64,000 bases of DNA, from assembly GCF_016406125.1 (NCBI RefSeq), contig NZ_CP066339.1, positions 682,001 to 746,000 on the forward strand, in the 5' to 3' direction. The DNA comes from Alicyclobacillus sp. SO9 (GTDB taxonomy: Bacteria; Bacillota; Bacilli; Alicyclobacillales; Alicyclobacillaceae). Shown here piece by piece: positions 50,037-62,590 of the stretch; positions within the stretch are counted from its first letter, which is position 1, and each line of letters starts with the position of its first letter. The notes under the pieces are model-generated. The model was not told the origin of the DNA. It searched no databases and was given only the letters and a program-made list of their open reading frames with translations. The translations under genes were made by a program, and so were the position numbers.

Positions 50037-50070
50037 TTTGTCATGCACCCCTTCCAAGATGGAGGAGGTG
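50037..50070 (+). promoter_or_regulatory. TTTTGTCATGCA-box hairpin 1
   Basis: The box TTTGTCATGCA is followed by CACCCCTTCC pairing imperfectly with GGAGGAGGTG. The 3' arm is Shine-Dalgarno-like and is followed 9 nt later by TTG, which opens a 10-codon frame (50080-50112). It lies 90 nt before the first WxL gene. Confidence 0.55.
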
Positions 50071-54150: not shown

Positions 54151-55785
54151 ATGCCAGTAACTTGTATTGTTTGTAACCGGCCACTTCGGGCACCGAGAAG
54201 TGTCATGCAACAAGTGGGACCCGTTTGTGCCAAGCGTGTACGCGAATTAGGTGCACAAATTCAGACCCAGATGCGAAATGAAGGGACGTGGACAGATTCT
54301 GCAGCGGCTAGTTTTCGACCTGGGCAAGACGGATGGCTGGCTTTGGCGCAGCAAGCGCATGAAGGATATGTCCATACACGTGCCGCGAGAAGAGCAGCAA
54401 GAATCCGAGCCAGGCAACAGGCGCAGGTAACTCCGCAGCCCGAGCCAAGGACAGAAATCGTCCCTCATGTTTGGTCTGCGACACAACAGGACTACGGAGA
54501 CCTGGAATATGTGTATCTCAGTGCTGATCAGGCTGAATGTCATTCTAGTTCCGGAAATACCTACTTTGTGACGGAAAACTCCTGTACGTGTCCTCATCAT
54601 GACCACCGGGGTGCAGTCTGTCGCCATATTCAAGGGTTCCGTCAGTTGCAAGGGATTCCTGCAGAACCTGAGACGGTCTCTGATCCCGTTCCTCGTTCTA
54701 TGGTTCAGGCTGAACCCGACCTATCTGCTTTCGATTCACCAGAAGAGGCGTACCGTGAACAACAACTGAATGTCTGGCGCAGCTATTCAGGACAACCGAC
54801 CCTGTGGATGTCTCGGGATGACCAGGCTTGGGAAGCGCTTCGTGACGAGGCTAGTGGAGACTTGTCGTACGTCTACGAGGGGGTTTTGGGTGGTACGGAT
54901 AACACCTTTGGCTTGGAGATCGAGTTTGAAGATGGCGATACGTATTCTATCGGCAGAGAGCTATACGGGGACGGTTTGTTGCTCTCCCCTCAACGCAGTG
55001 GGTACCATGGCCGGACTGCGGAAGGAAAGTGGAAATTTGAATATGACGCGTCTGTCTCCAGGGGAGAGCGTGGGGGAGAACTCGTCTCTCCCGTATTTGT
55101 TGACTCCAGAGAGAGTTGGGCACAAATCCAGCGCGTGGCCGAAGTGGTCCATCGACATGGGGGCCGGGTGACCGTCAGTACGGGCGGGCATGTACATATC
55201 GGCATGGATCCGTTAGATGAGCGAGCGTACCGCTGGCAGCGTCTTGCTCGTATCGGACTGGGCTACGAGAAGGCACTGTATCGGATGGGGGCAGCGGATG
55301 ATGCCGCTTTTCAACGCGGGGACGCGGGGCGTCATAGAGGTGCTCATTATGCCAACCCGATTCCCGACTCGGCCCGAAGAATGTACGGGACCTCTCTAAC
55401 TGCAGACCAGGCGAGACGGTTGCTCGTCAACCATTCTGGGAGAGGGCATGGGGCGCGATACACGGCGTTCAATACCATGGGCTATATTGAACGGGGCATC
55501 CCGACCGTCGAGTTTCGCTATCCCAATAGTTCACTAGACCCTCGTTCCCTGCAAGCGCAGGTTTGTGTGACCAACGCATTGGTTCATCAGTCTGCCATCC
55601 TGAGACAGGCTACAGACCAGGGGCAGCTGCTGCCAGGACTGTCTCAAACCCGTGAGCAATGTCGTGTCAGTCAGCGTGTTTCGGAAGAACAAGAAACACA
55701 GAACTTCCGCAAGTTCCTGGACGTGCTTGGGAATCGGGAAGTTCAATTGGCCGCAACATGGCTGTGGTTACGAGGACGAGCATGA
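54151..55785 (+). CDS. Zinc-finger/SWIM/amidoligase fusion protein
   Basis: 544 residues in three parts. Residues 1-30 are a DUF6011-like zinc finger (CIVCNRPLRAPRS ... CAKRV). Residues about 145-170 are a SWIM finger (CTCPHHDHRGAVCRHI). From about residue 250 is an amidoligase domain: TFGLEIEFEDGD, WKFEYDASVS, GGELVSP, GGHVHIGMD and VEFRYPNSSLDP. Amidoligases of this COOH-NH2 ligase superfamily form amide or isopeptide bonds with ATP. The fused zinc-binding domains suggest nucleic-acid or protein targeting. A GGCT gene, often paired with amidoligases, lies 1.1 kb downstream. Confidence 0.82.
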   Translation: MPVTCIVCNRPLRAPRSVMQQVGPVCAKRVRELGAQIQTQMRNEGTWTDSAAASFRPGQDGWLALAQQAHEGYVHTRAARRAARIRARQQAQVTPQPEPRTEIVPHVWSATQQDYGDLEYVYLSADQAECHSSSGNTYFVTENSCTCPHHDHRGAVCRHIQGFRQLQGIPAEPETVSDPVPRSMVQAEPDLSAFDSPEEAYREQQLNVWRSYSGQPTLWMSRDDQAWEALRDEASGDLSYVYEGVLGGTDNTFGLEIEFEDGDTYSIGRELYGDGLLLSPQRSGYHGRTAEGKWKFEYDASVSRGERGGELVSPVFVDSRESWAQIQRVAEVVHRHGGRVTVSTGGHVHIGMDPLDERAYRWQRLARIGLGYEKALYRMGAADDAAFQRGDAGRHRGAHYANPIPDSARRMYGTSLTADQARRLLVNHSGRGHGARYTAFNTMGYIERGIPTVEFRYPNSSLDPRSLQAQVCVTNALVHQSAILRQATDQGQLLPGLSQTREQCRVSQRVSEEQETQNFRKFLDVLGNREVQLAATWLWLRGRA

Positions 55786-55855: not shown

Positions 55856-56566
55856 GTGAAACACATTGATGAGAACAGTGAGCTGACGGCAGCCTTCGTC
55901 GTGAGCTATGAAGGCAGGATGTTTGAGGCGGACACCCCGAGCCAAATCCTGACGGAGATAACCGGGGTCTTCTTCCCGGATGAAGAGCCGATTACAAGAT
56001 GGCTGGTGCGTGGGAAGTATGCGAGACAATGGCTCAACACCTTTGCAGCAGAGTCCAGAAAAGCTGAAATTGTAAGTGGTGACCGGAAGGTGGAAGCCAA
56101 CTTTATCAATCGGTACAGCAAGGATGAATCTGAGAATGAGGAATTCAGTTCTATGGAGTGGAGCGACGAGCCGGTAGCAGTGATCAATATTCTAACGGAT
56201 CGGACGCTGTTTCAATCGTTGTTGGAACTAGAGCTCCTGTCACTGATGGAAAGAGAGGACGTATTCTACTTCCGGAACGGGGGTCCCTGGGCAGCATCCT
56301 ACGAGGCGGGGCAAACCTCCTGTCAGTTGTGCCGGTATTTTCGGTCATTTCCGGATGGCAGCACACGATGTGTGGACCAAGCGGTGGATTTACAACATGG
56401 CGTGCGGGTGAATCCAGAGGCGCCTGTGGGGTGGTTCTGCCAAGCCTTTGCGCCCTTACATGACGATGACGGAATGGATGAACGTGTTGGGGGGAAGTAC
56501 GTCCCGATATCTCCAGATATGGTTCATCTCCCAGAATGGCAGGTCAACTATGTCAGCGAAGAATAG
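55856..56566 (+). CDS. Hypothetical protein with four-cysteine cluster
   Basis: 236 residues from GTG 55856, which follows GGAGGAG at about 7 nt. The C-terminal third has CQLCRYF ... TRCVD ... GWFCQAF, a likely metal site. The N-terminal part is an alpha/beta domain of unknown type. It sits between the amidoligase and the XRE gene and overlaps the latter by 17 nt, so it is part of the same operon. Confidence 0.55.
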   Translation: MKHIDENSELTAAFVVSYEGRMFEADTPSQILTEITGVFFPDEEPITRWLVRGKYARQWLNTFAAESRKAEIVSGDRKVEANFINRYSKDESENEEFSSMEWSDEPVAVINILTDRTLFQSLLELELLSLMEREDVFYFRNGGPWAASYEAGQTSCQLCRYFRSFPDGSTRCVDQAVDLQHGVRVNPEAPVGWFCQAFAPLHDDDGMDERVGGKYVPISPDMVHLPEWQVNYVSEE

Positions 56567-56915
56567 AGTTGGAGGGAGAATCCAAGCTCTTCGAAAGGCC
56601 CAGATGATGTCCTTACGTCGTCTGGGTGAGCTTTCAGGTGTGAGTGCATCCCAACTGTCAAAGATTGAGGCGGGTACACATGATACGACGGTGGGAACCC
56701 TGGAGAACATTGCACAGGCATTAGGATGTACAGCGGCTGCCCTTCTCAGTGACGACATGGATGCTGTCATGGACTTGGAGATGCTCTGTTTCACTTCTGC
56801 GGGATGGCGTACGACAGCAGGAGTCCTGTATCCGACTGACGAGGAGAGAAAGCTGATGGCGCAACAGATTGGAATGGTTCAAACGTATTTGTCACATGGG
56901 GGAGGCGACAAGTGA
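56550..56915 (+). CDS. XRE-family regulator
   Basis: 121 residues. Helix-turn-helix of the XRE type: GGRIQALRKAQMMSLRRLGE, then SGVSASQLSKIEAGTHD and LENIAQALGC. The C-terminal part is not recognised. ATG 56550 overlaps the preceding gene; its stop overlaps the following GGCT start by one base (TGATG). Probably regulates the amidoligase cluster. Confidence 0.8.
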   Translation: MSAKNRVGGRIQALRKAQMMSLRRLGELSGVSASQLSKIEAGTHDTTVGTLENIAQALGCTAAALLSDDMDAVMDLEMLCFTSAGWRTTAGVLYPTDEERKLMAQQIGMVQTYLSHGGGDK

Positions 56916-57331
56916 TGTGGGTGTTTGTATATGGCACACTGCGCTCCGGTGAATCCAATCACCACGTCATTCAAGAAGACATTGTCGAGTTAGAGCCGGG
57001 AAAGGTGGCAGGCGTGTTGCACGACGCCGGTCACTTTCCTTACTTGGTGACCAGTGATTCGGGTTGTGGATATGTCACGGGGGACTGGGTTCGAATTGAA
57101 AATGATACGGCGCTCGTGAAACTGGACAGTCTGGAAGGATTCAAGGAAGCTGGCTATGAGTTCAACCATTATGATCGTGTGGTATTGAAGGATGTCGAGT
57201 CAGGCCGAACTGGGTGGGGGTATATAGCGGGGCCAAGGATTCGAACTGCGATCTATCCAGCCATCAGTTCGGGAGACTGGAAGTTGCTCGCCAGAAAGTT
57301 TGAAAATATGAATCAAATCTGCTGGCGTTAG
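56915..57331 (+). CDS. Gamma-glutamylcyclotransferase-like protein (GGCT/AIG2)
   Basis: The 138-residue product starts with the GGCT signature FVYGTLRSGESNH and continues with GYVTGDWVRI, LVKLDSLEGF and GWGYIAG. GGCT enzymes release 5-oxoproline from gamma-glutamyl amides and can undo amidoligase products. ATG 56915 follows GGGGGAGG. The last 14 codons (after KLLA, 57293 on) lie inside the proposed inverted segment. In the flipped state the protein would instead end ATKVSRFG, with the stop 4 nt before the peptidase start. Confidence 0.83.
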   Translation: MWVFVYGTLRSGESNHHVIQEDIVELEPGKVAGVLHDAGHFPYLVTSDSGCGYVTGDWVRIENDTALVKLDSLEGFKEAGYEFNHYDRVVLKDVESGRTGWGYIAGPRIRTAIYPAISSGDWKLLARKFENMNQICWR

Positions 57332-57541
57332 CGTCCGCTGATAGCGAGCCATAAGTTCGTAATATGGTATTAAATTGAAGTGTGTGTTGGGCCCTGAGCC
57401 CCCTGGATTTCCGCCATTGGATAAATCAAACCCGTTCACCAGCAAAATAAGACATACTAACAATGAAGACAATACAAAGTGCATGGAGTATTTACTCAGC
57501 TTATAGACCTTGTTCCATTTGTTTTCTCTCTTTTCTCTCAT
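57287..57541 (-). CDS. Detached N-terminus of the S53 peptidase (inverted)
   Basis: Read on the minus strand from ATG 57541 there are 85 codons up to the inverted repeat. They encode a basic start, a signal-peptide-like helix (YSMHFVLSSLLVCLILLVNG), a Gly/Asn-rich linker and LTPADLIHIFKLSGE, which resembles the linker before an S53 catalytic domain. The frame runs on into antisense GGCT sequence. The SD-like GGTGA lies 4-5 nt upstream. On its own this is only half a gene; joined at GGCGAG it continues in frame into the plus-strand catalytic domain. Confidence 0.6.
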
Positions 57542-57578
57542 TAACTCACCCAAAGCGGCTCACTTTGGTAGCGGCGAG
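57287..57578. other. Candidate invertible DNA segment, 292 bp
   Basis: CTCGCC (57287-57292) and GGCGAG (57573-57578) are inverted repeats; AAAGT and ACTTT just inside are also shared but at different spacing. In both partners GGCGAG is read as Gly-Glu in frame: KLSGE on the detached N-terminus and SGETI on the catalytic domain. Flipping restores a continuous signal-peptide-linker-S53 reading frame and a GGCT-S53 operon spaced 4 nt. Confidence 0.65.
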
Positions 57579-58907
57579 ACCATAGCGCTATTGGAAAACA
57601 ATACATATTTTGATAGGACAGCATTTCAAGAATTTTGCAAACGATACAGGGCTCAAGACCCAACGATTTGGCAACCGGATAACAAGGTGCTAACAGCGGG
57701 TGCGGCACCACAGCAATTGCACATGACGGCAAAGAAGCACGCCGTATTGGTTCCTGAAACAATGTTAGATGTGGAATGGGCACATGTTATTGCTCCAAAG
57801 GCGCGGTTGGTTATTGTGGGAACTTACGGACTATCTAAATCTAGGTTGAACAAAATCTTGACTACATATCATGTATCCGTAGTGTCTGACTCTCACACCG
57901 GAATTTACCTTGGTACCCGTAGTCTTGGTAATCCCAAGCCATTGCAATATGTTTCATGGGCTGCCAAGCACCATGCAGTGTTCACAGCATCTGGTGATGG
58001 TGGATCCCTGCTTGAGAAAGAGGCCAATATTCCGCAGGTGGTATTTGTGGGAGGGACACAACTCAATCCATTTGATAAGACGTTTAACATGAGAAGTTTT
58101 CCAACTTGGCCGGCGGAAGGATATGGACATGCCGTATTTCAAATTCCAGCACTTCCTTATCAGCGTTCCATTGCAGGATACTGGCGGCGGACTCCAGACG
58201 TCGTGTGGCAGGCTGGATATCCAGGCGTTGTACTTGAAGTACAAAACGGCAAGTGGATACATGCAGAAGGTACAAGCTTGTCAACTCCTCTATGGGCTGC
58301 GATGTGGGCACTGGGAGATAAGGTTCATGAGATGAAAACGGGAGAGGCCCTGTCGCCTAATGCGAATGAAGTACTATATAGACTCCACACCCAAAACCCA
58401 TCGGCGTTTTTAAAAATGTCTGGCCAGCGTCACCAAGGATTGGGTATGCCTTCTCCATCTTTTGTAAAAGACATTGGTTCCTTCAAAAATAACGTCATAA
58501 AATCGTACTCAGACGGATACCCGACATGGCTCTTAGATACTCTTCGAGGAATCCTTCTGGCCCTGTTATGCACAAGTGGCGCTCTGTTCTGGAGAGCAAT
58601 AAAACACAAAAGGTATAAGGGGCTCTCATGGGTTTTAGCATATTTGACGGTAGCCCTTGTGATAGGACTATACGACGCTAGCTTCGATCCTGAATGGTTT
58701 TATGTTCCTATAAAGGCAGGTAATCTTCCCCTTCGCTTGCTTAGTCTGTTTGAACTGTTATTCGCTGCTTTTGGTTTTCTCTTACTTATGCGTACATATA
58801 TGATTCGTACAAGTCATCAGTTGACGCGAAAGTTGCGGAAACGAGTTCGAAATAGACGTTCCCAAAAGGAGCGTCATACACCAATCAATAAATCAGGAAG
58901 TAGTTGA
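57510..58907 (+). pseudogene. S53 (sedolisin-like) peptidase catalytic domain, N-terminus missing in this orientation
   Basis: Numbered from 57510, the serine-carboxyl peptidase residues are Glu83 and Asp87 (ETMLDVEWAH), Asp163 (SGDGG) and the nucleophile Ser256 (GTSLSTPLW). The domain begins at SGETIALLENNTYF and ends with three or four membrane helices (residues about 345-430) and a basic tail, so the enzyme should face outward from the membrane. Upstream there is a stop at 57504 and no start with a ribosome-binding site, signal peptide or linker. All motifs are intact, so it looks switched off rather than decayed. Confidence 0.7.
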
Positions 58908-59143
58908 GGTAAAAGGCCCTTTTACAATTGAGAAACACTGTTTGAAATCAAGCGAGCAGCTTTATTTGTCACACCGACAAACTTATCTTTCTCACGGTGT
59001 CCTGATGAATTACACTCTATCGCGACGTCGGTGGAGATAGTGATTCACGTCAAGATAGGGTTGTTTTCTTTATTCATAAACAGCGTCGTACATAAGCCTT
59101 AGACTTATTTTTGACACATGACCACTAGCATGAATTTCTTATG
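58908..59143. other. Intergenic stretch upstream of the recombinase
   Basis: No gene is visible. A short hairpin TTTGTC-ACACC-GACAAA (58955-58971) occurs. The position upstream of a resolvase-type recombinase is where a recombination (res) site would be expected, but I cannot define one. Confidence 0.3.
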
Positions 59144-59184
59144 TTTTGTCATACACCTCTCCATTTATACGGGAGAGGTTTTTT
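59144..59184 (+). terminator. TTTTGTCATGCA-box hairpin 3, attenuator-like
   Basis: TTTTGTCATACA is followed by ACCTCTCC and GGAGAGGT in a perfect 8-bp stem and a run of six T. This copy is a complete Rho-independent terminator in shape, 83 nt before the recombinase start. Its GGGAGAGG arm is also SD-like. Confidence 0.65.
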
Positions 59185-59266
59185 GATTGGGTCAGAAAGC
59201 AGGTAGAAATCTCGGTGATCGGATGTGTCAATAGCAACTCAACCATTATTCAAGGAGGCACGACGG

Positions 59267-59839
59267 GTGAAGGGGCAGAGAATTGGATATGTACGTGTAA
59301 GCACGGTGGAACAGCATCCAGACCGACAACTGGACGGTGTATCCCTGGACCGGGTCTTTACGGATAAAGTGTCCGGTAAGACCACTCATAGACCCCAACT
59401 CCAGGCATTGTTGGAGTTCGTGCGAGAAGGGGATCTTGTCGTCGTTCATAGCATGGACCGCTTGGCCCGAAACTTGGATGACTTGCGCAGTATTGTACGC
59501 CGTCTAACGGAACGCGGCATACAGGTGGAGTTTATCAAGGAGAATCTCACTTTTTCCGGCAAGGATTCTCCCATGGCCACTTTGTTGCTGTCAGTTATGG
59601 GAGCCTTTGCCGAATTTGAACGTGCCCTGATTCGAGAACGTCAACGTGAAGGGATTGAACTCGCGAAACAACGCGGCGTATACCATGGTCGCAAGAAGTC
59701 GCTAACTGATGATCAAGTCATAGAATTGCGCAGACGAGCGCGGTCAGGAGAGAGAAAATCTGAACTGGCTCGTGCGTTTGGGGTCAGCCGGGGAACGGTT
59801 TATGAATACTTGAAGGAGCAACCTGTCGATAGCACATAA
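59267..59839 (+). CDS. Small serine recombinase (resolvase/invertase family)
   Basis: 190 residues from GTG 59267, 8 nt behind AAGGAGG. The catalytic Ser is in GYVRVSTVEQ; other family motifs are DRQLDG, DKVSGKTTHRPQL, VVHSMDRLARNLDDL and FAEFERALIRERQREGI. The C-terminal helix-turn-helix is KSELARAFGVSRGTVYEYLK. Such enzymes resolve cointegrates or invert short DNA segments. It lies 1.7 kb from the proposed invertible segment. It is not a large serine integrase. Confidence 0.93.
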   Translation: MKGQRIGYVRVSTVEQHPDRQLDGVSLDRVFTDKVSGKTTHRPQLQALLEFVREGDLVVVHSMDRLARNLDDLRSIVRRLTERGIQVEFIKENLTFSGKDSPMATLLLSVMGAFAEFERALIRERQREGIELAKQRGVYHGRKKSLTDDQVIELRRRARSGERKSELARAFGVSRGTVYEYLKEQPVDST

Positions 59840-59885
59840 TAACCGAACCCCAGATTCCTCTGTGCTATTGGTCTACCCCAGCAAT

Positions 59886-59924
59886 CTTGTCATGCACCCC
59901 CTTATCCATTGAGGGGGTGCTTTT
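59886..59924 (+). promoter_or_regulatory. TTTTGTCATGCA-box hairpin 4
   Basis: CTTGTCATGCA is followed by a perfect GCACCCCC/GGGGGTGC stem and TTTT. The 3' arm GAGGGGG is the likely ribosome-binding site of the 35-codon gene at 59926. The stem plus T-run could end transcription after the recombinase. Confidence 0.6.
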
Positions 59925-59925
59925 C

Positions 59926-60033
59926 ATGTGGACATTACAAGTCGTTGGCAGTGTTGTTGTCTTGGGAGCTGTCACCCGGTATGTGATTGGACGGCCCTGG
60001 ACGAAGGGAGGGCAGCGTCATGAAGCTACGTAA
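59926..60033 (+). CDS. 35-residue membrane peptide at the head of the transfer operon
   Basis: ATG 59926 opens MWTLQVVGSVVVLGAVTRYV, one membrane helix, and ends at 60033, overlapping the TcpC-like gene by 14 nt. Small membrane proteins are common in conjugation operons. Too short for family assignment. Confidence 0.5.
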   Translation: MWTLQVVGSVVVLGAVTRYVIGRPWTKGGQRHEAT

Positions 60034-60847
60034 AGTCGTGCGCGTCATGATGTTTATACTTGTTATTCTAGGGGCCATCGGGGGTGTAGGAACGCTCATT
60101 CCCCATCATACAGCGGCTGTAAAGAAAGTGTCGAAGTCTGTCCATTACGCCGGAGAGCGGGCGTTTGCAGCAGCCTTTGCGAAAGCGTACCTGACGTTTC
60201 AGCCTTCGGATTCATCGAGTACAAGGGAACAGGAAATGTCCTCCTTTGCCGGAAATACCAGCTGGTTAGGGACGGATCCGGCTGTGAGCTCTCCAGGGAA
60301 GAAAGCGCAAACGGTGGGTCAGGTGCTGGCGGGCCGGGTTTCAAAACTGGATACGTCCCATGTCACGGTGAATGTGCTGGTGTATCTGCGGACGCCAAAG
60401 GCGCGCTGGGTGAAGTTGGTGGTCCCAGTTGGCATCTCTGGCTCACACTATGACGTCTATGCGCCGCCTACACTCACAAACGCCTTTACAGGGGTCGCCA
60501 GTGTGCAGGACAAAACTTGGTCGGGAAATGCGGCACCGGCAGCAGTGGTCACGAAAGTGCAAAACGTGCTCCAAGGTTTTCTTCCTCTGTACTTTCAATC
60601 CAGGGGGGTTACACCGCTGCAGCCGTATTTAAACTCGGCTGCCCATGTGCAACCGGGAGATGGACTAGTGAAGTTTGTGAAGATCGATACCCTGAACGTC
60701 TATGGTGCGAAGACCGGGCCTTGGATTGCCGTGACAGACGTCCAGGTCAGCGATCCGGTGACAAAGATGCACTATGAAGAAGAGTTCGCTATTGGGCTGG
60801 AAAGCCAGGCCGGGCACGATGTCATTACGGGGATTGTCGTGAATTGA
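60020..60847 (+). CDS. TcpC/VirB8-like conjugal transfer protein
   Basis: 275 residues with one N-terminal membrane helix (MFILVILGAIGGVGTL) and an extracytoplasmic part that starts ERAFAAAFAKAYLTFQPSDS, typical of TcpC/ConG-like proteins with two NTF2-like domains. They form the wall-spanning core of the Gram-positive type IV secretion channel. ATG 60020 follows GGGAGGG. It is the first large gene of the visible transfer operon. Confidence 0.75.
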   Translation: MKLRKVVRVMMFILVILGAIGGVGTLIPHHTAAVKKVSKSVHYAGERAFAAAFAKAYLTFQPSDSSSTREQEMSSFAGNTSWLGTDPAVSSPGKKAQTVGQVLAGRVSKLDTSHVTVNVLVYLRTPKARWVKLVVPVGISGSHYDVYAPPTLTNAFTGVASVQDKTWSGNAAPAAVVTKVQNVLQGFLPLYFQSRGVTPLQPYLNSAAHVQPGDGLVKFVKIDTLNVYGAKTGPWIAVTDVQVSDPVTKMHYEEEFAIGLESQAGHDVITGIVVN

Positions 60848-60863
60848 ATCATCAAACCACAGA

Positions 60864-60896
60864 TTTGTCATGCAACTCCTCTTCTGCAGAGGGGTT
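60864..60896 (+). promoter_or_regulatory. TTTTGTCATGCA-box hairpin 5
   Basis: ATTTGTCATGCA is followed by AACTCCTCT pairing with AGAGGGGTT (one wobble). The ribosome-binding site GGAGGTGA of the next gene begins 4 nt later. Confidence 0.55.
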
Positions 60897-60910
60897 CTTT
60901 GGAGGTGAGG

Positions 60911-61495
60911 GTGCTGAATTTCAAGACCCATGAAATGGTGGGCGCTTTGTCTATGGAGATGGTCCTGGTAGAGACCCACGCCGGATTGCATTGGTGGACC
61001 CCCGTCCTGGTGGTGGCAGCGGGCCTTGCGGCTCCGGTACCGGACATTGACCAGCCAGAGAGCTGGATTGCCCACAAGATTCCCCTTGGCCAGGTTGTCG
61101 GTCGGTTTGTTAGGCACAGAACGGTCACCCACAGTTTGTTATTCCTGGCACTCTTGTGGGTGGTTTTGCTGAGAGTAGTGCAGATTCCGTTGCCACTGGG
61201 GCTTTCCTGGAGAAGTGTGGCCTTTGCCTTGTGGATTGGGTATGCTTCTCATCCCCTGGCAGATTTATTGAATCCACAGGGCGTGCAGCTGCTTTGGCCG
61301 CTTCCATGGTGGGTGAAGGTGTTACCAGAGCCCATTGCCATTCCTGTGGAGTCCGGACGAGAGTCACTCTTGCACGCCATCTTGACGTTGCTGGTAGTCC
61401 TCATCGCCGCTGCCTTTGCGGTTGCCCACTTACCTGGCCACGTCCCCTTTGTCACGTCGTTCTCGCATCACATTCTCAGCATCATCACTTTCTAG
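60911..61495 (+). CDS. YdjM-family membrane metal-dependent hydrolase-like protein
   Basis: 194 residues with about five hydrophobic segments. Family landmarks are KTHEMVGAL at the start, VPDIDQPES, RHRTVTHSLLFLAL and a C-terminal SHPLADLLNPQGV. The His and Asp residues in these motifs are candidate metal ligands, as in the YdjM/LexA-regulated inner-membrane family. It is not a usual conjugation component. GTG 60911 follows GGAGGTGAGG. Confidence 0.8.
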   Translation: MLNFKTHEMVGALSMEMVLVETHAGLHWWTPVLVVAAGLAAPVPDIDQPESWIAHKIPLGQVVGRFVRHRTVTHSLLFLALLWVVLLRVVQIPLPLGLSWRSVAFALWIGYASHPLADLLNPQGVQLLWPLPWWVKVLPEPIAIPVESGRESLLHAILTLLVVLIAAAFAVAHLPGHVPFVTSFSHHILSIITF

Positions 61496-61527
61496 GTCTA
61501 TGTACAGGGAGAGAGGAGAAATGAAAC

Positions 61528-61890
61528 ATGTTCCAATTTGGAAGAAAACTCAGAAAAGGATTCATCGGTCTCATGGCAGGGCTTATATCGAGCGTGGCCA
61601 GTGTGGTGACGGCTTTGGCCAATTCAAACCCCCTCAGTGGCATTTCCAAGCCTTCCGTCTCCAGTTCCAGCGGTCCGGGTGCAGGCATGTATCAATACCT
61701 GATGCCGCAGATTGTGCCTATTTTTTTACTGGCACTGGGGGCGATGGCGGTTTGGTACTTCGTCCGTCACCAACATACCAAGCTGGTGACCTTGGTGATT
61801 ACCGCGACCATCGTGCTGGTAATTCTCACAGAACCCACGGCTCTCGGAACGTTTGTGTCCTGGGTAGGCGGTCTATTCAAGCAACTGTAA
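61528..61890 (+). CDS. VirB2/TcpD-like small membrane protein
   Basis: 120 residues: a signal-like N-terminal helix (GFIGLMAGLISSVASVV), a Ser/Gly-rich loop, then two helices (IVPIFLLALGAMAVWYFV and LVTLVITATIVLVIL). This is the size and layout of pilin-like or TcpD-like subunits of type IV secretion operons. The assignment rests on topology and position only. ATG 61528 follows GAGAGGAG. Confidence 0.55.
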   Translation: MFQFGRKLRKGFIGLMAGLISSVASVVTALANSNPLSGISKPSVSSSSGPGAGMYQYLMPQIVPIFLLALGAMAVWYFVRHQHTKLVTLVITATIVLVILTEPTALGTFVSWVGGLFKQL

Positions 61891-61906
61891 GGAGAGGGCA
61901 AACGGC

Positions 61907-62590
61907 ATGAACAGAACCTATCGGAAGTTGTTTCATCAACGCCCGACCTTGACCAGCCTGGGGGACTTCAAGTTCCCCGCAGGCATCAGTGTCCCCTTGG
62001 ATGGGCTGTTGGCGTTTGTCATTTGCCTCTTGCCTGCTGCGATTGTAGCACCGGTTTTGCACTGGACGCTGGGGATCAACCGTCTCATCGCCACCCCCAT
62101 GCTGGCGTTTGCCGGAGCGTGGCTGGCAACACGGATGGACATGCAGGGGAAACCCTTTCCGGTGTGGTTGATGAATCTTGCTGCCTATTTCTTTCGTGCC
62201 CATCACAGCAACGGCTGGGACCCCATCAAGGCAGCAGGGCGCATTCCTGGGAGCCTCCAAGTCGATGTGGGCTGGTTGTTGTCCAAGGGCAACCAGGTAC
62301 AGTCTGGTGCGCTGCCGGTAGAAGTGCGTTCCATTCAAGGCGATCCCGTTGAGCTCCAGACCCACGTGCCGGTGGATGTGAGAAGGCTGGAGAGACGCAG
62401 ATATATCATCCAGCGTGCTGTTTCTTCTGCCACACCCCGTCATACCAAGAAAGCGACCACAGGGTTGCAGCCTGGGCAGTTGTCCTTGACGGGCACGGAG
62501 GTCAAGTGGCAGACGCTCACATCGGTACCCACATTCCAACCCGGGCAGAAGGCGTCGAAGGACGTACGGGATCATCAAATTCGGTTTTAG
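61907..62590 (+). CDS. TcpE-family conjugal transfer protein
   Basis: 227 residues. A short N-terminal segment (MNRTYRKLFHQRPTLTSLGD then PAGISVPLDGLLAF) leads into two membrane helices, the typical TcpE form, with a longer soluble tail than usual. TcpE is a membrane protein of Gram-positive transfer channels. It is 16 nt after the previous gene and 5 nt before the ATPase gene. Confidence 0.72.
   Translation: MNRTYRKLFHQRPTLTSLGDFKFPAGISVPLDGLLAFVICLLPAAIVAPVLHWTLGINRLIATPMLAFAGAWLATRMDMQGKPFPVWLMNLAAYFFRAHHSNGWDPIKAAGRIPGSLQVDVGWLLSKGNQVQSGALPVEVRSIQGDPVELQTHVPVDVRRLERRRYIIQRAVSSATPRHTKKATTGLQPGQLSLTGTEVKWQTLTSVPTFQPGQKASKDVRDHQIRF

Follow-up and report, generated by a model that had tools for sequence, protein, structure and literature searches.

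A small inversion has probably split an S53-like peptidase gene on a putative conjugative element of Alicyclobacillus sp. SO9

Introduction

The genome of Alicyclobacillus sp. SO9 (5.29 Mb, two contigs) contains a gene for an S53-like peptidase whose two parts lie on opposite strands. It was analysed within a 64-kb stretch of the genome (C1:682001-746000), here called the window. The plus-strand reading frame lacks a start and an N-terminus, and a matching N-terminus is encoded by the minus strand directly upstream; the 64 kb contain no further matching frame. The initial annotation described this arrangement correctly and took the region to be a candidate DNA inversion switch. The locus raises the question of whether the segment is a reversible switch or the trace of a single event. 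Known inversion switches and intragenic invertons, such as the e14 P segment with PinE/PinQ and the Cdi sites of C. difficile, likewise comprise a segment of a few hundred base pairs that includes part of a coding sequence, with a serine recombinase nearby. Intragenic invertons have reportedly been described by Chanin et al. in 2024, a study cited in PMC11868660.

Results

A gene in two adjoining frames

A family profile was built from six unsplit relatives, with the window's own gene left out, and was used to scan all 455 stop-to-stop frames of at least 60 residues in the window. Two frames match, and they adjoin on opposite strands (next best E 1.9). The plus-strand frame (57507-58904) scores about 282-283 bits and the minus-strand frame (57203-57559) scores 18.9 bits (E 1.5e-5); the latter is therefore the N-terminus of the S53-like family, with the profile similarity that the initial annotation predicted for it. 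In its present form, the plus-strand frame could start only at TTG 57510 or 57519, without an obvious ribosome-binding site, or within the catalytic domain, for example at ATG 57723. No clear promoter or terminator was found in the segment. The coordinates of the features are listed in Table 1.

The genome has two paralogs of the gene, with 44% and 35% identity, and both are continuous (L006 1192-2775; L007 1234-2724), as is every relative that was read, including L083-L086. Because these genes are unsplit, the split is a derived state and does not reflect a two-part design of the ancestor. Few genomes carry the subfamily: at E 1e-20 only the present genome and two others among 59 genomes of the order have it, and the nearest other species with this peptidase are Alicyclobacillus. 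Searches of viral contigs, phages and plasmids for the segment or its close relatives found at most the recombinase.

Table 1. Features of the split peptidase locus, in window positions
Feature	Position	Strand	Basis
GGCT (gamma-glutamyl cyclotransferase, AIG2-like), present orientation	56912-57331	+	PF06094, E 1.6e-18
DNA common to the sister element	ends at 57282, within GGCT		94% identity to L002
Inferred inverted segment, 270 bp	57283-57552	.	best of 944 junctions; left edge at end of GGCT homology
Displaced peptidase N-terminus: ATG (57541-57539), hydrophobic segment, start of mature catalytic domain (LTPADLIHIFKLSGEQ)	57283-57541	-	only other window ORF matching the profile, E 1.5e-5
CTCGCC, left half of 6-bp inverted repeat, judged coincidental	57287-57292	+	
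GGCGAG, right half of 6-bp inverted repeat, judged coincidental	57573-57578	+	
Remaining S53-like catalytic domain and two C-terminal hydrophobic segments	57553-58907	+	profile, 282.6 bits
Small serine recombinase, Tn21 resolvase-like	59264-59839	+	68% to Tn21 resolvase, 71% to plasmid recombinase

The encoded protein

The rejoined protein resembles S53 sedolisins, such as kumamolisin and kumamolisin-As, in its profile similarity across the catalytic domain and in its catalytic Glu/Asp/Asp/Ser. Profile A1 matches kumamolisin among PDB sequences (E 6e-5), and E155, D159, D235 and S328 (rejoined numbering) are present, invariant and aligned with the kumamolisin motifs. All four catalytic residues, including the serine of the GTS motif, are still encoded by the present plus-strand part. 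A structure search with a model of the relative L083 ranked kumamolisin first and, because confidence in the model is low (mean pLDDT 55.6), lends weak support to an S53 fold.

Sedolisins carry a propeptide of ~180 residues, for which the rejoined protein has no room. It differs from them further in having one N-terminal hydrophobic segment (residues 22-40) and two C-terminal ones, and in having no Pfam match; NCBIfam likewise gives no relevant match (E 0.01). The protein is called S53-like because neither it nor the two paralogs match the Pro-kuma_activ activation domain, and only about 70 residues precede its mature start. In the family-profile alignment, LTP falls on residue 6 of mature kumamolisin, and the LTPADL stretch, initially described as a linker, therefore belongs to the enzyme itself. 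Together with L083-L086, the three copies in the SO9 genome form a rare set of membrane-anchored, propeptide-free S53-like proteins that the Pfam and NCBIfam models do not recognise.

Position of the breakpoints

Each of 944 possible flips was scored by matching its rejoined protein to the six-relative profile. The best, 57283-57552, gives a protein of 537 residues that reads ...FKLSGEQQAAHFGSGETIALL... at the junction and scores 315.3 bits, against 282.9 bits for the present catalytic part by itself. In the four closest relatives, eleven residues separate the Leu/Phe after the LTP helix from GETI; two of them, a Gln and a Gly, are invariant (Q86 and G92 in alignment A1). The best junction keeps both residues and restores the exact spacing of the relatives.

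The initial annotation placed the ends at 57287-57578, on a CTCGCC/GGCGAG pair. This flip also joins the halves in frame, but it scores 291.3 bits (24 bits under the best, rank 521 of 944), fuses FKLS straight to GETI and loses both Q86 and G92. The view that an inversion separated the N-terminus from the catalytic part, and that one flip rejoins them in frame, is strongly supported, whereas the proposed end points and the 527-residue product are not borne out.

The left breakpoint can also be approached from a second copy of the GGCT gene, which is 94% identical as far as 57282 and directly afterwards can no longer be aligned; profile scoring and, independently of it, the end of GGCT homology agree. 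Since neighbouring junctions score within 1-3 bits of the best flip, the profile supports breakpoints at about 57283-57552, with each end uncertain by a few bases. Even with 3 mismatches allowed, the left junction sequence occurs only once in the genome.

Repeats at the segment ends

No inverted repeat above random expectation lies at the inferred breakpoints (57283 and 57552). When the two are centred, 6 of 26 bases are alike; shifting them by up to 6 bases raises this to 10 at most, and random pairs of places treated in the same way typically reach 11-12. Known invertible sites are bounded by repeats some 10-20 nt long (PMC5903667); those of the e14 P segment measure 16 bp (PMC12529663).

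The CTCGCC (57287) / GGCGAG (57573) pair does exist, as the initial annotation stated, but a role as the crossover site is not supported: the resulting protein is worse, and the pair is at chance frequency, with 50 six-base inverted pairs in the surrounding 551 bp and 42 +/- 15 in other parts of the window. Once the segment is turned back, the GGCGAG copies become direct repeats with a spacing of 30 bp, and the apparent inverted repeat would be a by-product of the inversion. The strongest inverted repeat nearby (57386-57401 / 57649-57664, 14/16) lies inside both coding halves and by inspection would give an out-of-frame join.

The GGCT gene and its surroundings

PF06094 covers residues 4-124 of GGCT as the sequence now stands, and the domain is kept in both orientations. 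The flip was initially said to repair GGCT. It does place the GGCT stop 4 nt before the peptidase ATG, with a plausible ribosome-binding site (GGGTGAG) in the rejoined form; the same spacing is produced by most other junctions tried, and the repair is weak evidence because GGCT is unbroken even without the flip.

TcpC and TcpE conjugation proteins, with a weak TcpF-like ATPase, are encoded downstream of the split gene, which suggests that the locus is part of an integrative conjugative element. The sister element near C1:870-890 kb (L003 8371-15230, C1 about 878-885 kb) carries the same GGCT gene, other cargo and then a serine recombinase 89% identical to that of the window (C1:884675). Between its GGCT and recombinase genes are three minus-strand ORFs that by eye look like spore-germination proteins GerA, GerB and GerC. 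These fill the slot after GGCT that the S53-like gene occupies in the window, and by this comparison the cargo between GGCT and the recombinase seems exchangeable.

Shortly 5' of GGCT, window positions 54151-55785 encode a 544-residue protein that matches the phage amidoligase family phrog_2443 (E 4e-12) and is kept in the sister element. It might form with GGCT a pair that makes and cleaves gamma-glutamyl bonds. An intergenic module, TTGTCATRCAMC, recurs on the plus strand at window positions 50038, 59146, 59887 and 60865 (5 matches with at most one mismatch in the window, 0.76 expected) and is mostly followed by a hairpin and T-run resembling a terminator, ahead of the element's next gene. 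Rfam has no family in window 56000-62000.

The serine recombinase

The usual targets of Tn21-type resolvases are res sites in direct repeat. The window recombinase is 68-71% identical over 183 residues to resolvases of this type (TnpR), from which it differs in its solitary position, with cargo on one side and a TcpC-type conjugation gene on the other; a Tn3-type transposase was not seen beside it. Its best PHROG is named DNA invertase, and against PDB sequences it is equally close to Tn3 resolvase (97.3 bits) and a DNA-invertase (96.4 bits). A small serine recombinase is present 1.7 kb downstream of the segment, as first noted; its closest relatives are Tn21-type resolvases. Because the recombinase also occurs in the sister element, which lacks the segment, its closeness to the segment says little.

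Discussion

The evidence points with good probability to a one-off inversion, free of repeats, by which an S53-like gene carried as cargo on a conjugative element was disrupted. The gene for a membrane-anchored, kumamolisin-like peptidase would have been carried directly after GGCT, and a single inversion of ~270 bp, with no repeats at its ends, would have reversed its 5' end. The other strand would since then have carried the start codon, the membrane/export segment of the N-terminus and the opening ~16 residues of the mature catalytic domain. The profile-matching frames that adjoin on opposite strands, the intact paralogs and relatives, and the coincidence of the best junction with the end of GGCT homology all favour this account, as do the restored residue spacing, the lack of repeats at the breakpoints, the unique left junction and the presence of the resolvase-like recombinase where there is no such segment. 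Counted against it are the position of the left breakpoint at a cargo boundary and the absence of stops in both halves, which is equally expected of a switch. Because an intact copy of the same gene is not known from a sister strain, the unflipped form is a reconstruction. The present split gene is almost certainly inactive, and the inversion was most likely illegitimate, not site-specific, in origin. Both halves are still open frames, which suggests that it was fairly recent.

It is unlikely that the S53 gene instead came in behind GGCT in an already rearranged form, through a single complex event of insertion with inversion, such that a continuous GGCT-S53 operon never stood on the element. 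In favour of this, the left breakpoint lies exactly at the end of the homology to the sister element's GGCT. The S53 cargo as now oriented also has a direct repeat of 6 bp, GGAAGT, on either side (57279-57284 and 58896-58901), which may be a target-site trace or chance. So short a repeat near both ends is weak evidence, with an estimated ~0.1 expected by chance, and the rejoined form has GGGTGAG and the GGCT stop 4 nt before the ATG, as in a former operon.

A reversible phase switch, with the segment flipped back and forth by the nearby serine recombinase or a different one to turn the peptidase on and off, is very improbable. The open frames of both halves, the nearby recombinase with its invertase-named PHROG and the restored frame with closely spaced GGCT stop and ATG would fit it. 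Unlike established inversion switches, the segment has no end repeats and its recombinase is of the resolvase type, kept in the sister element beside other cargo; the only repeat pair proposed as a crossover occurs at chance level and yields a worse protein. Comparison of homologous elements for the opposite arrangement, as initially suggested, gives a switch no support: none of the relatives examined has the flipped form, and the sister element has no S53 gene. A working switch, itself unlikely, would need a recombinase able to act on sites without recognisable similarity. A reversible intragenic switch in which a Tn21-type resolvase of a conjugative element acts at sites without recognisable inverted repeats, turning a membrane-anchored peptidase on and off, is scarcely to be expected; if it were a true switch, an inversion switch without recognisable repeats would be new.

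An assembly artefact, with a continuous gene in the real genome and the segment inverted in silico, is highly improbable, as such inversions normally need long inverted repeats, of which there are none here, and the two-contig genome suggests long reads.

With a one-off inversion as the preferred account, the locus would show clearly how an inversion of very small size can cut a gene. Ordinary annotation would report a truncated peptidase and a spurious antisense ORF. The locus also illustrates that a short in-frame inverted repeat spotted by eye can mislead: scoring all junctions against a family profile moves the breakpoints and removes the main argument for a switch.
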